Origin: Gelidibacter gilvus
GTDB taxonomy: Bacteria; Bacteroidota; Bacteroidia; Flavobacteriales; Flavobacteriaceae
Assembly: GCF_004115975.1 (NCBI RefSeq)
Contig: NZ_SDDZ01000009.1
Coordinates: forward strand, 62,001-126,000
Length of the DNA stretch: 64,000 nt
Direction: 5' to 3'
The position numbers were made by a program, and so were the translations under genes. Numbering within the stretch: position 1 is the stretch's first letter; each line of letters starts with the position of its first letter. Positions 41,230-43,617 of this stretch are shown one piece after another. A model generated the notes under the pieces. The model did no database searches and was not told where the DNA came from. It was given only the letters and a program-made list of their open reading frames with translations.

Positions 41230-41604
41230 TCAATTTTTCACAAATTCCTTAAAAGTTCCATCCGTATAGAAAATGACAATCTTTTCAATGCTTTTATCTT
41301 TTGTGTCACTAGGAGAATTTGCTGGGCGTAGTGGAGTGTCTGCAATCTGATTTTTTTCTGAAGTAATATTTTTGGGCCTGGACGGAAATTCGCCTTTCCC
41401 ATTTAACAGCCAATAAAGTTCAACTTCAGGATAGGAGGCTAAGACTTTGAGGACAAAATCTAAACTAGGTTTGTTCCGTCCTGATAGAATATGTGAAATA
41501 CTCGAGCGCTGAACACCTATGATATCGGAGAAGGAAGACGCCGATTCAGCGTAGTGATCGATGACTTTCTGTAGCCGCTTTGCGAAATCATCACTGTTGA
41601 TCAT
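41230..41604 (-). CDS. XRE-family helix-turn-helix transcription regulator
   Basis: Residues 1-70 form a Cro/CI-type helix-turn-helix: FAKRLQKVIDHYAESASSFSDIIGVQRSSISHILSGRNKPSLDFVLKVLASY, the classic SxxxxIGVxRSxIS-x3-GRxKPS arrangement. A linker follows, then a short C-terminal part (KSIEKIVIFYTDGTFKEFVKN) that may be a dimerisation segment. It is 124 residues. The gene is divergent from an M14 carboxypeptidase gene, and the intervening 300 bases contain three TTAC-N4-GTAA inverted repeats, one at its own promoter, so autoregulation and control of the neighbour are likely. Confidence 0.92.
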   Translation of the reverse strand: MINSDDFAKRLQKVIDHYAESASSFSDIIGVQRSSISHILSGRNKPSLDFVLKVLASYPEVELYWLLNGKGEFPSRPKNITSEKNQIADTPLRPANSPSDTKDKSIEKIVIFYTDGTFKEFVKN

Positions 41605-41631
41605 TGTGAACTCGTCTTTAAGTTTTGTTGA

Positions 41632-41645
41632 GTTACAAATGTAAC
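41632..41645 (-). promoter_or_regulatory. Inverted repeat GTTACAAATGTAAC overlapping a -7 box of the XRE gene
   Basis: The 14-mer is an inverted repeat of GTTAC around AAAT. On the minus strand it contains TACATTTG (41636-41643), a TAnnTTTG -7 box, about 30 bases before the XRE start codon. It is therefore a candidate operator overlapping the promoter. Confidence 0.5.
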
Positions 41646-41855
41646 GAATACTCTCTCTTAAAGCTAATTATTTATTTAATATTGGAGTTTTAGATTAAAG
41701 CTCAATTTCATATAATACATCATAATAACTTGATTATTAATTCGTTAACTCGCGTATTGAAGAGTTATACAATTTTGATCATTTTCTTAAAAACCGCACT
41801 ACATCATTTGAGAAAGCTTGTATATCATTGTAAACAAAACTCAATCATTTTGATG

Positions 41856-41869
41856 TTTACAAATGTAAA
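41856..41869. promoter_or_regulatory. Inverted repeat TTTACAAATGTAAA upstream of the M14 gene
   Basis: The arms TTTAC and GTAAA flank AAAT, the same design as 41632-41645. It lies 38 bases before the chosen ATG of the carboxypeptidase gene. Confidence 0.5.
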
Positions 41870-41879
41870 TTATCAATTG

Positions 41880-41893
41880 TTTACATTTGTAGC
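41880..41893 (+). promoter_or_regulatory. Third TTAC-N4-GTA site containing the -7 box of the M14 gene
   Basis: TTTACATTTGTAGC has one mismatch in the second arm. It holds TACATTTG (41882-41889), a TAnnTTTG box 18 bases before the ATG at 41907. Binding here by the XRE regulator would block the promoter. Confidence 0.5.
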
Positions 41894-41906
41894 ACAATTA
41901 TTCAGC

Positions 41907-43064
41907 ATGACTATAGAGCACTTAAGAAACGAATATGAACAGTACCATGAGGCATCTCTTTTTGGTCGTTATATTAATTCGGATCATATCAAAAATCTGA
42001 TTGAAAAGCATAGTAATAATTTTGACGTATCGGTTCTTGGGAAGTCGGTTTTAGAAGAAGAAATTCACTTCATAAAAGTTGGGTCCGGACGAAAGAAGAT
42101 TTTGATGTGGTCTCAAATGCATGGGAACGAAAGCACAACCACTAAAGCGGTGTTTGATCTTTTGAATGTTCTTGCCGAATCTAAAAATGACACTATGAAG
42201 AGTCTTTTGGGTAAATGCACTATCGGAATCATTCCCATGCTGAATCCTGACGGCTCACGAGCTTATAGTCGTTTAAATGCAAATCAGGTGGATTTGAATA
42301 GGGATGCACAGAATTTATCACAGCCAGAGAGTAGGATCCTAAGGCATTGCTTTGAGGAGTTTAAGCCGGACTTTTGCTTTAACCTTCATGGTCAGCGCAC
42401 TATTTTTAGTGCTGGCGCGACCAGTAAGCCTGCAACGGTTTCTTTTTTGTCGCCAGCTCAGGATGTGATGTGCTCGGTTACTAATACACGAAAAATGGCT
42501 ATGGATGTCATTGTTAAAATGAATCAGAATTTACAAAGGCAGATTCCCGGTCAAGTTGGTATTTATGATGATGCTTTTAATATCAATTGTGTTGGGGACA
42601 CTTTTCAGGCTTTAAATGTGCCAACAATTCTATTTGAAGCTGGGCATTATCATGATGATTATGATAGGGAGAAAGTAAGAGAGCTGATTTTTCAATCCCT
42701 ATGGGTTGGAATGGCAGAAATTATTTTTGGAGATCCGCAAGGCTCTAAGGAAAACGCGTATTTTGAAATCCCTCAAAACGATAAGTTGTTTTATGACATT
42801 ATTATTCGAAAGGTGAAATTGGAAAGAGGAGATGTTCATCAAATTTTGGATATAGCTGTTCAATATGAAGAGAAACTCCAGCAAAATCAGATCGTTTTCA
42901 TACCAAAAATTGAAAAGATCTCTGATCTAAGTGGTTTTTTTGGTCACAGAGAGATTGATGCCCATAAACAATTGGTGTTTGTCGAAGATAATAAAGTATT
43001 AAATGAGGGTCTCGCAATCGATTTCGTATTGATTAATGGTAAGAAACACACACTATTTGTTTAA
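41907..43064 (+). CDS. M14-family zinc carboxypeptidase / AstE-like deacylase
   Basis: I chose ATG 41907 (MTIEHLRNEYEQYHEAS, 385 residues). The open frame to 41730 covers the promoter sites and has no family character. The zinc site of the M14/aspartoacylase group is visible: MWSQMHGNESTTTKA (His and Glu near residues 73-76) and FNLHGQRTIFS (His near 162). The arginine/tyrosine-rich part PMLNPDGSRAYSRLNANQVDLNRDAQ also fits. IEFEAGH-type sequence TILFEAGHYHDDY holds the catalytic Glu candidate. The substrate could be a peptide or an N-acyl amino acid. No signal peptide is seen, so it is cytosolic. It probably responds to the divergent XRE regulator. Confidence 0.9.
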   Translation: MTIEHLRNEYEQYHEASLFGRYINSDHIKNLIEKHSNNFDVSVLGKSVLEEEIHFIKVGSGRKKILMWSQMHGNESTTTKAVFDLLNVLAESKNDTMKSLLGKCTIGIIPMLNPDGSRAYSRLNANQVDLNRDAQNLSQPESRILRHCFEEFKPDFCFNLHGQRTIFSAGATSKPATVSFLSPAQDVMCSVTNTRKMAMDVIVKMNQNLQRQIPGQVGIYDDAFNINCVGDTFQALNVPTILFEAGHYHDDYDREKVRELIFQSLWVGMAEIIFGDPQGSKENAYFEIPQNDKLFYDIIIRKVKLERGDVHQILDIAVQYEEKLQQNQIVFIPKIEKISDLSGFFGHREIDAHKQLVFVEDNKVLNEGLAIDFVLINGKKHTLFV

Positions 43065-43137: not shown

Positions 43138-43617
43138 ATGGGAAAGTTCAAATTAGATGAAATCGATCATCAAATTTTAGACATGTTAATTGATAATACG
43201 CGAATTCCATTTACGGATATTGCTAAAAAATTAGTGATTTCGGCAGGAACGGTTCATGTGCGTGTCAAAAAAATGGAAGAAGCTGGTATTATTCAAGGAT
43301 CATCATTGACCTTAGATTATAAAAAGCTAGGGTATTCTTTTATTGCTTATGTGGGTGTTTTTTTAAATAATACTTCTCAAACAAAATTTGTTTTAGAACG
43401 TATCAGTGAAATTCCTTTTGTTACGGTAGCTCATATTACCACCGGTAAATTCAATATTTTTTGTAAGGTGCGTGCTAAAAACACATCGCATGCAAAAGAT
43501 ATTATTTTTATGTTAGATGATATTGAGGGTATTTACAGAACTGAAACAATGATTTCATTGGAAGAAAGTATAAATGATAAGAAGCGTTTAATGCATTCTA
43601 TTTTTAACGAATTATAA
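43138..43617 (+). CDS. Lrp/AsnC-family transcription regulator
   Basis: The start at ATG 43138 (MGKFKLDEIDHQILDMLIDN) gives 159 residues, the family size; an upstream reading from 43036 overlaps the carboxypeptidase gene. The N-terminal winged helix is at residues 5-60 (TRIPFTDIAKKLVISAGTVHVRVKKMEEAGII). The C-terminal ligand-binding RAM domain has GYSFIAYVGVFLNN and VTVAHITTGKFNIFCKVRAKNT. Such regulators respond to amino acids. Its place directly after a peptidase-like gene is suggestive but does not identify targets. Confidence 0.94.
   Translation: MGKFKLDEIDHQILDMLIDNTRIPFTDIAKKLVISAGTVHVRVKKMEEAGIIQGSSLTLDYKKLGYSFIAYVGVFLNNTSQTKFVLERISEIPFVTVAHITTGKFNIFCKVRAKNTSHAKDIIFMLDDIEGIYRTETMISLEESINDKKRLMHSIFNEL

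Follow-up and report, generated by a model that had tools for sequence, protein, structure and literature searches.

Among the closest described counterparts of the system reported here are the repressors CI and Cro of phage lambda. They carry a helix-turn-helix (HTH) domain of the XRE type, bind palindromic operators arranged in two clusters with about 24 bp between neighbours, act at promoters that overlap these operators, and form DNA loops. The Lac, Gal and AraC loops likewise join distant operators that need helical phase, and loop-mediated repression in general depends on operator spacing. For lac, looping and operator spacing are dealt with in excerpts of two earlier papers (PMC1762422, PMC2553838). 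We describe a locus of similar layout in a stretch of 64,000 nucleotides of Gelidibacter gilvus (contig NZ_SDDZ01000009.1, positions 62,001 to 126,000), hereafter the window, from a genome of 4.63 Mb in 42 contigs. A gene for an XRE-family regulator and a gene for an M14 zinc carboxypeptidase-fold enzyme diverge here from 302 bp of DNA that holds most of an array of five operators. The XRE-type HTH, the two clusters of palindromes, the 24-bp step between neighbours and the promoters overlapping operators are all common to lambda and this locus; looping we infer. In contrast to lambda, the locus is chromosomal, conserved in the family and attached to an enzyme of metabolic type, the loop would span about 180-210 bp, and Pfam finds no CI C-terminal peptidase-like domain in the regulator, the only CI match being to the CI HTH at 15.4 bits, under the cut-off of 22. 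Compared with Lac, Gal and AraC, the protein belongs to another family, and the evidence for phasing comes from natural variation among about 70 genera.

The enzyme can be compared with three described types. MpaA and the small M14 peptidases have the same M14 catalytic core, whereas the window's protein lies far under the MpaA cut-off (equivalog NF007897, its best NCBIfam match, 24.1 bits against 157), carries an extra C-terminal beta region and stands in a different gene context. The reaction proposed for it, cleavage of an amide next to the free alpha-carboxylate in a diaminopimelate unit, is that of DapE, but DapE is an M20 protein and the window's enzyme matches M14 and no M20 model; it could work like DapE, not belong to the M20 DapE family, and would then be a non-orthologous replacement. 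The AstE/AspA deacylases remove an acyl group from an amino acid, and the window's protein matches their Pfam model weakly (PF24827, 15.1 bits, below the cut-off of 25).

The regulator gene (41230..41604, minus strand) encodes 124 amino acids, with the HTH at about residues 4-68, a disordered linker and a C-terminal two-strand tail (IEKIVIFYTDGTFKEF). The M14 gene (41907..43064, plus strand, start ATG at 41907) encodes 385 amino acids, of which about 285-385 form the C-terminal beta-rich region. An earlier note on this DNA had the two genes facing each other over three TTAC-N4-GTAA sites; they are divergent, back to back, instead. The sites at 41632-41645 (GTTACAAATGTAAC) and 41856-41869 (TTTACAAATGTAAA) fit the motif exactly, and the one at 41880-41893 (TTTACATTTGTAGC) is present but ends in GTAG, one mismatch away. 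All three are there, but the array is one of five, as two additional conserved places, 41595-41612 and 41819-41836, emerged on aligning nine genomes of the genus. The full operator is an 18-bp palindrome, TGTTTACAwwTGTAAACA. Its first copy, O1 (41595..41612, TGTTGATCATTGTGAACT, matrix score 9.7), is degenerate and lies over the XRE start codon; O2 (41630..41647, score 14.3), which includes the first site of the earlier note, holds the XRE -7 box. Three copies lie upstream of M14: O3 (41819..41836, TGTATATCATTGTAAACA, score 17.0), 35 bp before O4; O4 (41854..41871, score 21.1), the strongest, which includes the second site and lies over the -33 region of the M14 promoter; and O5 (41878..41895, score 14.5), which includes the third site, stands 24 bp from O4 and holds the M14 -7 box.

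The array is conserved well beyond the window. The sites recur at matching positions in all nine genomes of the genus, some letters differing, and in the family the expectation that relatives would carry the same sites beside orthologues held, with about five per locus in 103 intergenic regions. These regions derive from 109 loci (100 regions plus those of the genus), six without both genes having been dropped. The operator matrix finds 5.04 sites per locus in them against 0.13 in shuffled versions, and 0.03 sites per kb in M14 coding sequence; it was trained on the same 103 loci, so these counts are descriptive. An O1 site is found in 96 and an O2 site in 85 of the 103 loci. The O4-O5 spacing is exactly 24 bp in 88 of 103, the O3-O4 spacing is 33-35 bp in 70 of the 72 loci having O3, and the O1-O2 spacing is most often 35 bp. 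A second set of 80 named loci, partly overlapping the first (some contigs are identical), yielded 76 divergent pairs with 5.41 sites each; in the other four no divergent XRE was found, two of them lying at contig ends. By count alone the motif TTAC-N4-GTAA is not rare, with two exact matches in the 64 kb, at least two in 44 of 100 shuffles, and 78 matches genome-wide against 265 for the reversed control. Judged from sequence, it is clustering and conservation, not count, that make the sites real.

The gene pair is widespread. XRE homologues occur in 371 of 397 family genomes, mostly in single copy, and M14 homologues in 225 of 239 (E up to 1e-30, a second M14 perhaps being counted in some). 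Among the matches listed, 97 genomes have XRE and 97 have M14; 89 are common to both, and in 87 of these the genes are divergent within 2 kb, the other two being split over contigs.

The best evidence here that XRE uses these sites comes from genomes in which regulator and array are absent together. Six family genomes have M14 with no XRE adjoining it (L169, identical to L312, L170, L171, L172, L335 and L373); five were among nine listed genomes with M14 and without XRE, and L335 is the sixth case. No XRE match was found genome-wide in five of the six, L335 being judged on its stretch only. In the 400-420 bp before M14, none of the six has two or more sites, one has a single site and five have none. 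By comparison, the 120 bp before M14 hold at least one site in 103 of 103 XRE-linked loci and at least two in 100 of 103. A -7-like box is still visible by eye before M14 in several of the XRE-less genomes. That the regulator, the sites and the gene pair belong together is close to certain.

We then consider the distance between the two clusters. O2 and O4, measured in 77 loci, lie 202-204 bp (5 loci), 211-215 bp (40), 221-225 bp (28), 235 bp (2), 255 bp (1) or 259 bp (1) apart, and none of the loci falls at 205-210 or 216-220 bp, giving R 0.87 at 10.5 bp. O2 and O3, in 66 loci, are separated by 168-169, 176-180 or 187-190 bp and once by 200 bp. At 10.5 bp per turn this yields R 0.91 with a mean phase of 0.03 turn, which places O3 about 16, 17, 18 or 19 full turns from O2 and the operator clusters in helical phase, as is expected of a loop former. 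In a FastTree tree of both proteins, which covers 76 of the 77 loci, at least 19 changes of the O2-O4 length class are counted. Between nearest relatives the spacing differs by 0-3, 9-12, 31-32 or 45 bp, never by 4-8 bp. The O5-to-M14-start distance, taken as a control in the same neighbours, differs by 0-4, 6, 24 or 31 bp; changes of 4 and 6 bp thus do occur where phase should not matter. Draws of 20 loci gave R of about 0.87-0.88 with a Rayleigh p near 2e-7, a rough figure as the loci are related. In the named set, the O2-O4 distance is 202-203, 212-215, 222-225 or 235 bp in all 60 loci measured, the remaining 16 of 76 being without the full site set. The spacer sequence itself is poorly conserved within the genus.

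Phase between the clusters is kept also where O2 is missing. Twelve loci lack O2 but have a site at 120-190 bp; in 11 of them the distance from O1 to that site is 159-160, 168-171 or 178-180 bp, and the twelfth has 137 and 191 bp. Loci L134-L136, L144, L153, L154, L158 and L163 have lost O2 and show other spacing, with about 15 to 17 turns from O1 to the next site. Phase kept between clusters is what looping predicts, and we consider looping between the two clusters likely on these distances.

The earlier note also held that two sites contain the -7 box of the gene that follows, and this proved correct. The box TACATTTG occurs at 41882..41889 on the plus strand, inside O5, for M14, and at 41636..41643 on the minus strand (read from 41643 to 41636), inside O2, for XRE. 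We take TAnnTTTG to be the -7 box of Bacteroidota and identify both copies of TACATTTG on that basis. In 88 aligned loci the O5 centre is nearly fixed as TACnTTTG, with n being A in 65; the O2 centre is nearly fixed across the family, in 83 aligned loci, as the reverse complement of TACATTTG; and the O4 centre is free among 88 loci. Fixed centres in O2 and O5 and a free one in O4 would follow from a promoter role of O2 and O5 that O4 does not share. A further conserved AT-rich element, approximately TTAAA-N5-ACTTTATATAA (41695..41715), lies upstream of the XRE promoter at a nearly fixed distance from O2 (partly by eye) and recurs at the equivalent position in most of the 77 loci. Its role may be to bind a further protein or to bend the loop.

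The regulator itself matches Pfam HTH_3 at 24.8 bits (cut-off 23) and HTH_19 at 25.2 bits, under the cut-off of 30.2; its AlphaFold model (pLDDT, the predicted local distance difference test, 79) has five N-terminal helices, and a structure search returned ordinary HTH matches only, none at E 0.001 or below. A regulon search of its own genome with TGTTTACANNTGTAAACA at up to 3 mismatches gave 45 matches against 39 for the reversed control, and in nine genomes the range was 42-62 against 37-50; the excess is small, and the locus itself supplies part of it. The better single sites among those scored elsewhere (for example L194 and L195) are solitary, and on the sites scored we treat the regulator as mainly local. 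The sequence TACAAATGTA is commoner than its reversed control, 28 against 8, which we put down to the -7 box within it.

Based on the array, XRE would be the dedicated autoregulator of the locus, binding the pair O1/O2 at its own promoter and the trio O3/O4/O5 at the divergent M14 promoter. Proteins at the two clusters would touch and fold the intervening DNA into a loop that represses both genes together, with the -7 boxes covered by O2 and O5. Repression of both genes is quite likely, slightly more so than the loop. The circuit had been predicted as a simple repressor circuit, perhaps one responding to the enzyme's substrate. There is good support for a dedicated regulator acting through sites at both promoters, as the array is conserved along with the gene pair and disappears where XRE does not adjoin M14; the simplicity is not supported, as five sites, two clusters and helical phase over about 180 bp point to a loop. 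M14, in this account, would be a cytosolic zinc amidase that desuccinylates N-succinyl-L,L-diaminopimelate and so carries out the DapE step of lysine and peptidoglycan synthesis, to which no enzyme is assigned in these bacteria; a metabolite of the pathway would be the signal. We lean towards the account as a whole.

The fold and the active site of M14 are well defined. The protein matches Pfam Peptidase_M14 at 60.9 bits (cut-off 21.6), its AlphaFold model has a pLDDT of 93, and its best PDB match is 3l2n_A (Z 25.6, root-mean-square deviation 2.6, 243 residues aligned, residues 20-278). H72, E75, N131, R132, H161 and E244 are invariant in 35 of 35 sequences, three endosymbionts included, and comprise the zinc ligands HxxE...H, the substrate-binding Asn-Arg pair and the catalytic Glu. 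No signal peptide was seen by eye, so M14 is likely cytosolic. AstE/AspA and DapE were not among the best 50 structure matches, which excludes neither. By protein identity the nearest named relatives found belong to Gelidibacter, for example G. japonicus at 77% for M14. The suggestion that the gene encodes a deacylase or peptidase agrees with the Pfam family matches, and our best guess narrows it to N-succinyl-diaminopimelate desuccinylase. Next to its amide this substrate carries a free carboxylate, a feature in common with carboxypeptidase substrates, and it resembles the gamma-D-Glu-diaminopimelate bond cut by MpaA. By analogy, desuccinylase chemistry is plausible for M14.

Reduced genomes bear on this assignment. 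Endosymbionts with genomes of about 600 kb, and one with 345 kb, retain an M14 of this type. No XRE lies beside M14 in any of three endosymbiont stretches (L238, L239 and L240), none was found in the whole 345-kb genome, and the operator sites are absent at the three loci. In the 345-kb genome dapD is matched strongly, and dapA, dapB, dapF, lysA and several mur genes are matched as well. A search with E. coli dapE gave no match there and one for M20 proteins none at E 0.001, whereas 14 of 14 control genomes have an M20 protein; among deacylases the search covered these two kinds. Excerpts of one report describe the Walczuchella/Uzinura type as being without dapF and peptidoglycan genes (PMC3971599), and we rejected an assignment of the 345-kb genome to that type, as dapF and mur genes are present. 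A lack of peptidoglycan in that genome, which would have opposed a role like that of MpaA, was discarded on its mur genes.

In the window's own genome the best DapE-like M20 protein is clustered with an N-acetylornithine-type carbamoyltransferase, an amino acid kinase and argH, and a like neighbourhood occurs in two other free-living genomes and a 600-kb one (names partly by eye). From this arginine cluster, the M20 protein most likely serves arginine synthesis, which leaves DapE open. Strong dapD matches were found in 28 of the 30 genomes that have M14 and in 14 of the 30 that do not (Fisher p 1.4e-4, uncorrected for kinship), and the window genome's own dapD is confirmed by the Pfam N-terminal domain. 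The same step is troublesome in published annotations. In excerpts of one survey, DapE is left unresolved in two Bacteroidota, a Pedobacter has no convincing DapE, and Echinicola has DapC and DapE missing or a diverged DapL (PMC7311316); the part seen of a second paper has dapE missing in Sulcia (PMC2859065), and that of a third has one Karelsulcia gene undecided between argE and dapE (PMC12016543). M14 is, on gene content, a good candidate for the DapE reported missing in Bacteroidota, and desuccinylase, at less than even odds, is our best guess for its activity.

The alternative that survives best concerns this enzyme. M14 could be an MpaA-like murein peptide amidase that releases diaminopimelate from tripeptide for recycling, with XRE sensing muropeptides. 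MpaA is the best NCBIfam match and the sole match for the protein of the 345-kb endosymbiont; near M14 in one genome lie an NlpC/P60 gene and dapD; and mur genes are still present in the 345-kb genome. Yet the score is far below the MpaA cut-off of 157, and a 345-kb genome would less probably keep recycling yet lack a step of diaminopimelate synthesis. The window's genome, moreover, has a second M14 (L237 5290-11177, contig C24) that fits recycling better. Its N-terminus resembles a signal peptide by eye, and it adjoins Amidase_2, an S13 D-Ala-D-Ala carboxypeptidase and an L-Ala-D/L-Glu epimerase-like enzyme, the last below the cut-offs of the epimerase models. This cluster is likely one of peptidoglycan recycling, which would free the window's copy for another role. 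We regard the MpaA-like function as rather unlikely, though it is the most serious of the alternatives.

It is less probable still that no loop forms and that XRE dimers bind each promoter independently, the phasing then coming from, for example, a nucleoid protein or supercoiling. A site over the -7 box at each promoter would suffice for repression, and XRE is without a known tetramer domain. But local binding needs no phase over about 180 bp, and this is where the O2-O3 distances (R 0.91 in 66 loci), the at least 19 changes of length class that kept phase, and the 11 of 12 O2-less loci that hold O1 and the next site at phased distances all stand on the side of the loop.

About as improbable, or slightly more so, is a dual switch like that of lambda CI, in which XRE at O4 or O3 would activate M14 under some conditions and repress its own gene, and O5 would silence M14 at high dose. 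The strength and good conservation of O4, the unexplained element upstream of the XRE promoter and the lack of a conserved -33 box would suit it. However, O5 covers the M14 -7 box itself, several XRE-less genomes keep a -7-like box without palindromes, so that M14 is probably transcribed anyway, and endosymbionts keep M14 without XRE. That the sites are chance or mere promoter sequence, as two exact window matches no more than shuffles give and the -7 identity of TACATTTG might suggest, is hardly credible given five sites at set places in about 100 loci, an O4 that is not a -7 box, and the disappearance of the sites where XRE is not beside M14.

Outside the family the pair persists in looser form. 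With the endosymbiont family f16 excluded, 20 loci of other families were compared; XRE and M14 diverge in 17 of them, and in 8 of these 17 a gene or more than 1 kb lies between the two. A similar site adjoins XRE in all 11 scanned loci of other families. The XRE/M14 pair is old. At L245, L250, L251, L253, L376, L378, L380 and L381, which belong to part of families f5 and f7, XRE and M14 are separated by another gene or by over 1 kb and the sites before M14 are mostly lost; where a gene intervenes, XRE may control that gene. At L250 (5708-10357), a permease-like gene, an NlpC/P60 gene and dapD lie within 5 kb after M14.

Several observations count against the account of a looping repressor and a desuccinylase. 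Beyond the family, sites before M14 are weaker, less regular or absent, and among 6 further f7 loci with XRE, 4 have no site in the 420 bp before M14, namely those with XRE more than 1 kb from M14; evidence for control of M14 by the array is, in sequence terms, confined to the window's family. The phasing counts leave out 26 of the 103 loci, which had no scorable O2/O4/O5 set. No oligomerisation domain is recognised by Pfam in the 124-residue XRE, and its C-terminal tail has modest model confidence. No conserved -33 box was seen at either promoter in the aligned family loci, so XRE may have an activating role. On the side of the enzyme, dapD was called at E below 1e-80 and none of the 60 genomes reaches the curated cut-off (2 of 14 controls do), and M14 presence was called by score and not by orthology. 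Fourteen genomes have dapD with no strong match to this M14, and G402 has M14 without dapD. The DapE cut-off, a strict one that only 2 of 14 controls pass, is passed by none of the 60 genomes. With dapD genomes that have neither M14 nor DapE, M14 is not the only answer in the order, and an either-or distribution of M14 and DapE across dapD genomes, which we also considered, is unsupported as no genome of the 60 passes.

Downstream of M14, on the same strand, the window holds an Lrp/AsnC-type regulator gene (43138-43617) with an apparent -7 box of its own upstream, TATTTTTG, seen by eye.

A full-text search of one library of papers showed, among the papers listed, no report of this circuit or of M14 as DapE, and we know of no earlier chromosomal repression loop in Bacteroidota. 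If the loop is true, it would be the first in the phylum known to us. Helical phasing can be read here with unusual clarity from the lengths that occur naturally in about 70 genera. The broadest proposal, an M14 desuccinylase replacing DapE across the order, joined in this family to a loop-forming XRE switch that senses the diaminopimelate/lysine pathway, is a little more doubtful than the desuccinylase assignment by itself. If M14 is the desuccinylase, it closes the DapE gap that annotators list as novel biology in Bacteroidota and in Sulcia-type symbionts. The DapE step serves both lysine and peptidoglycan synthesis, so the enzyme could then be a target particular to these bacteria.

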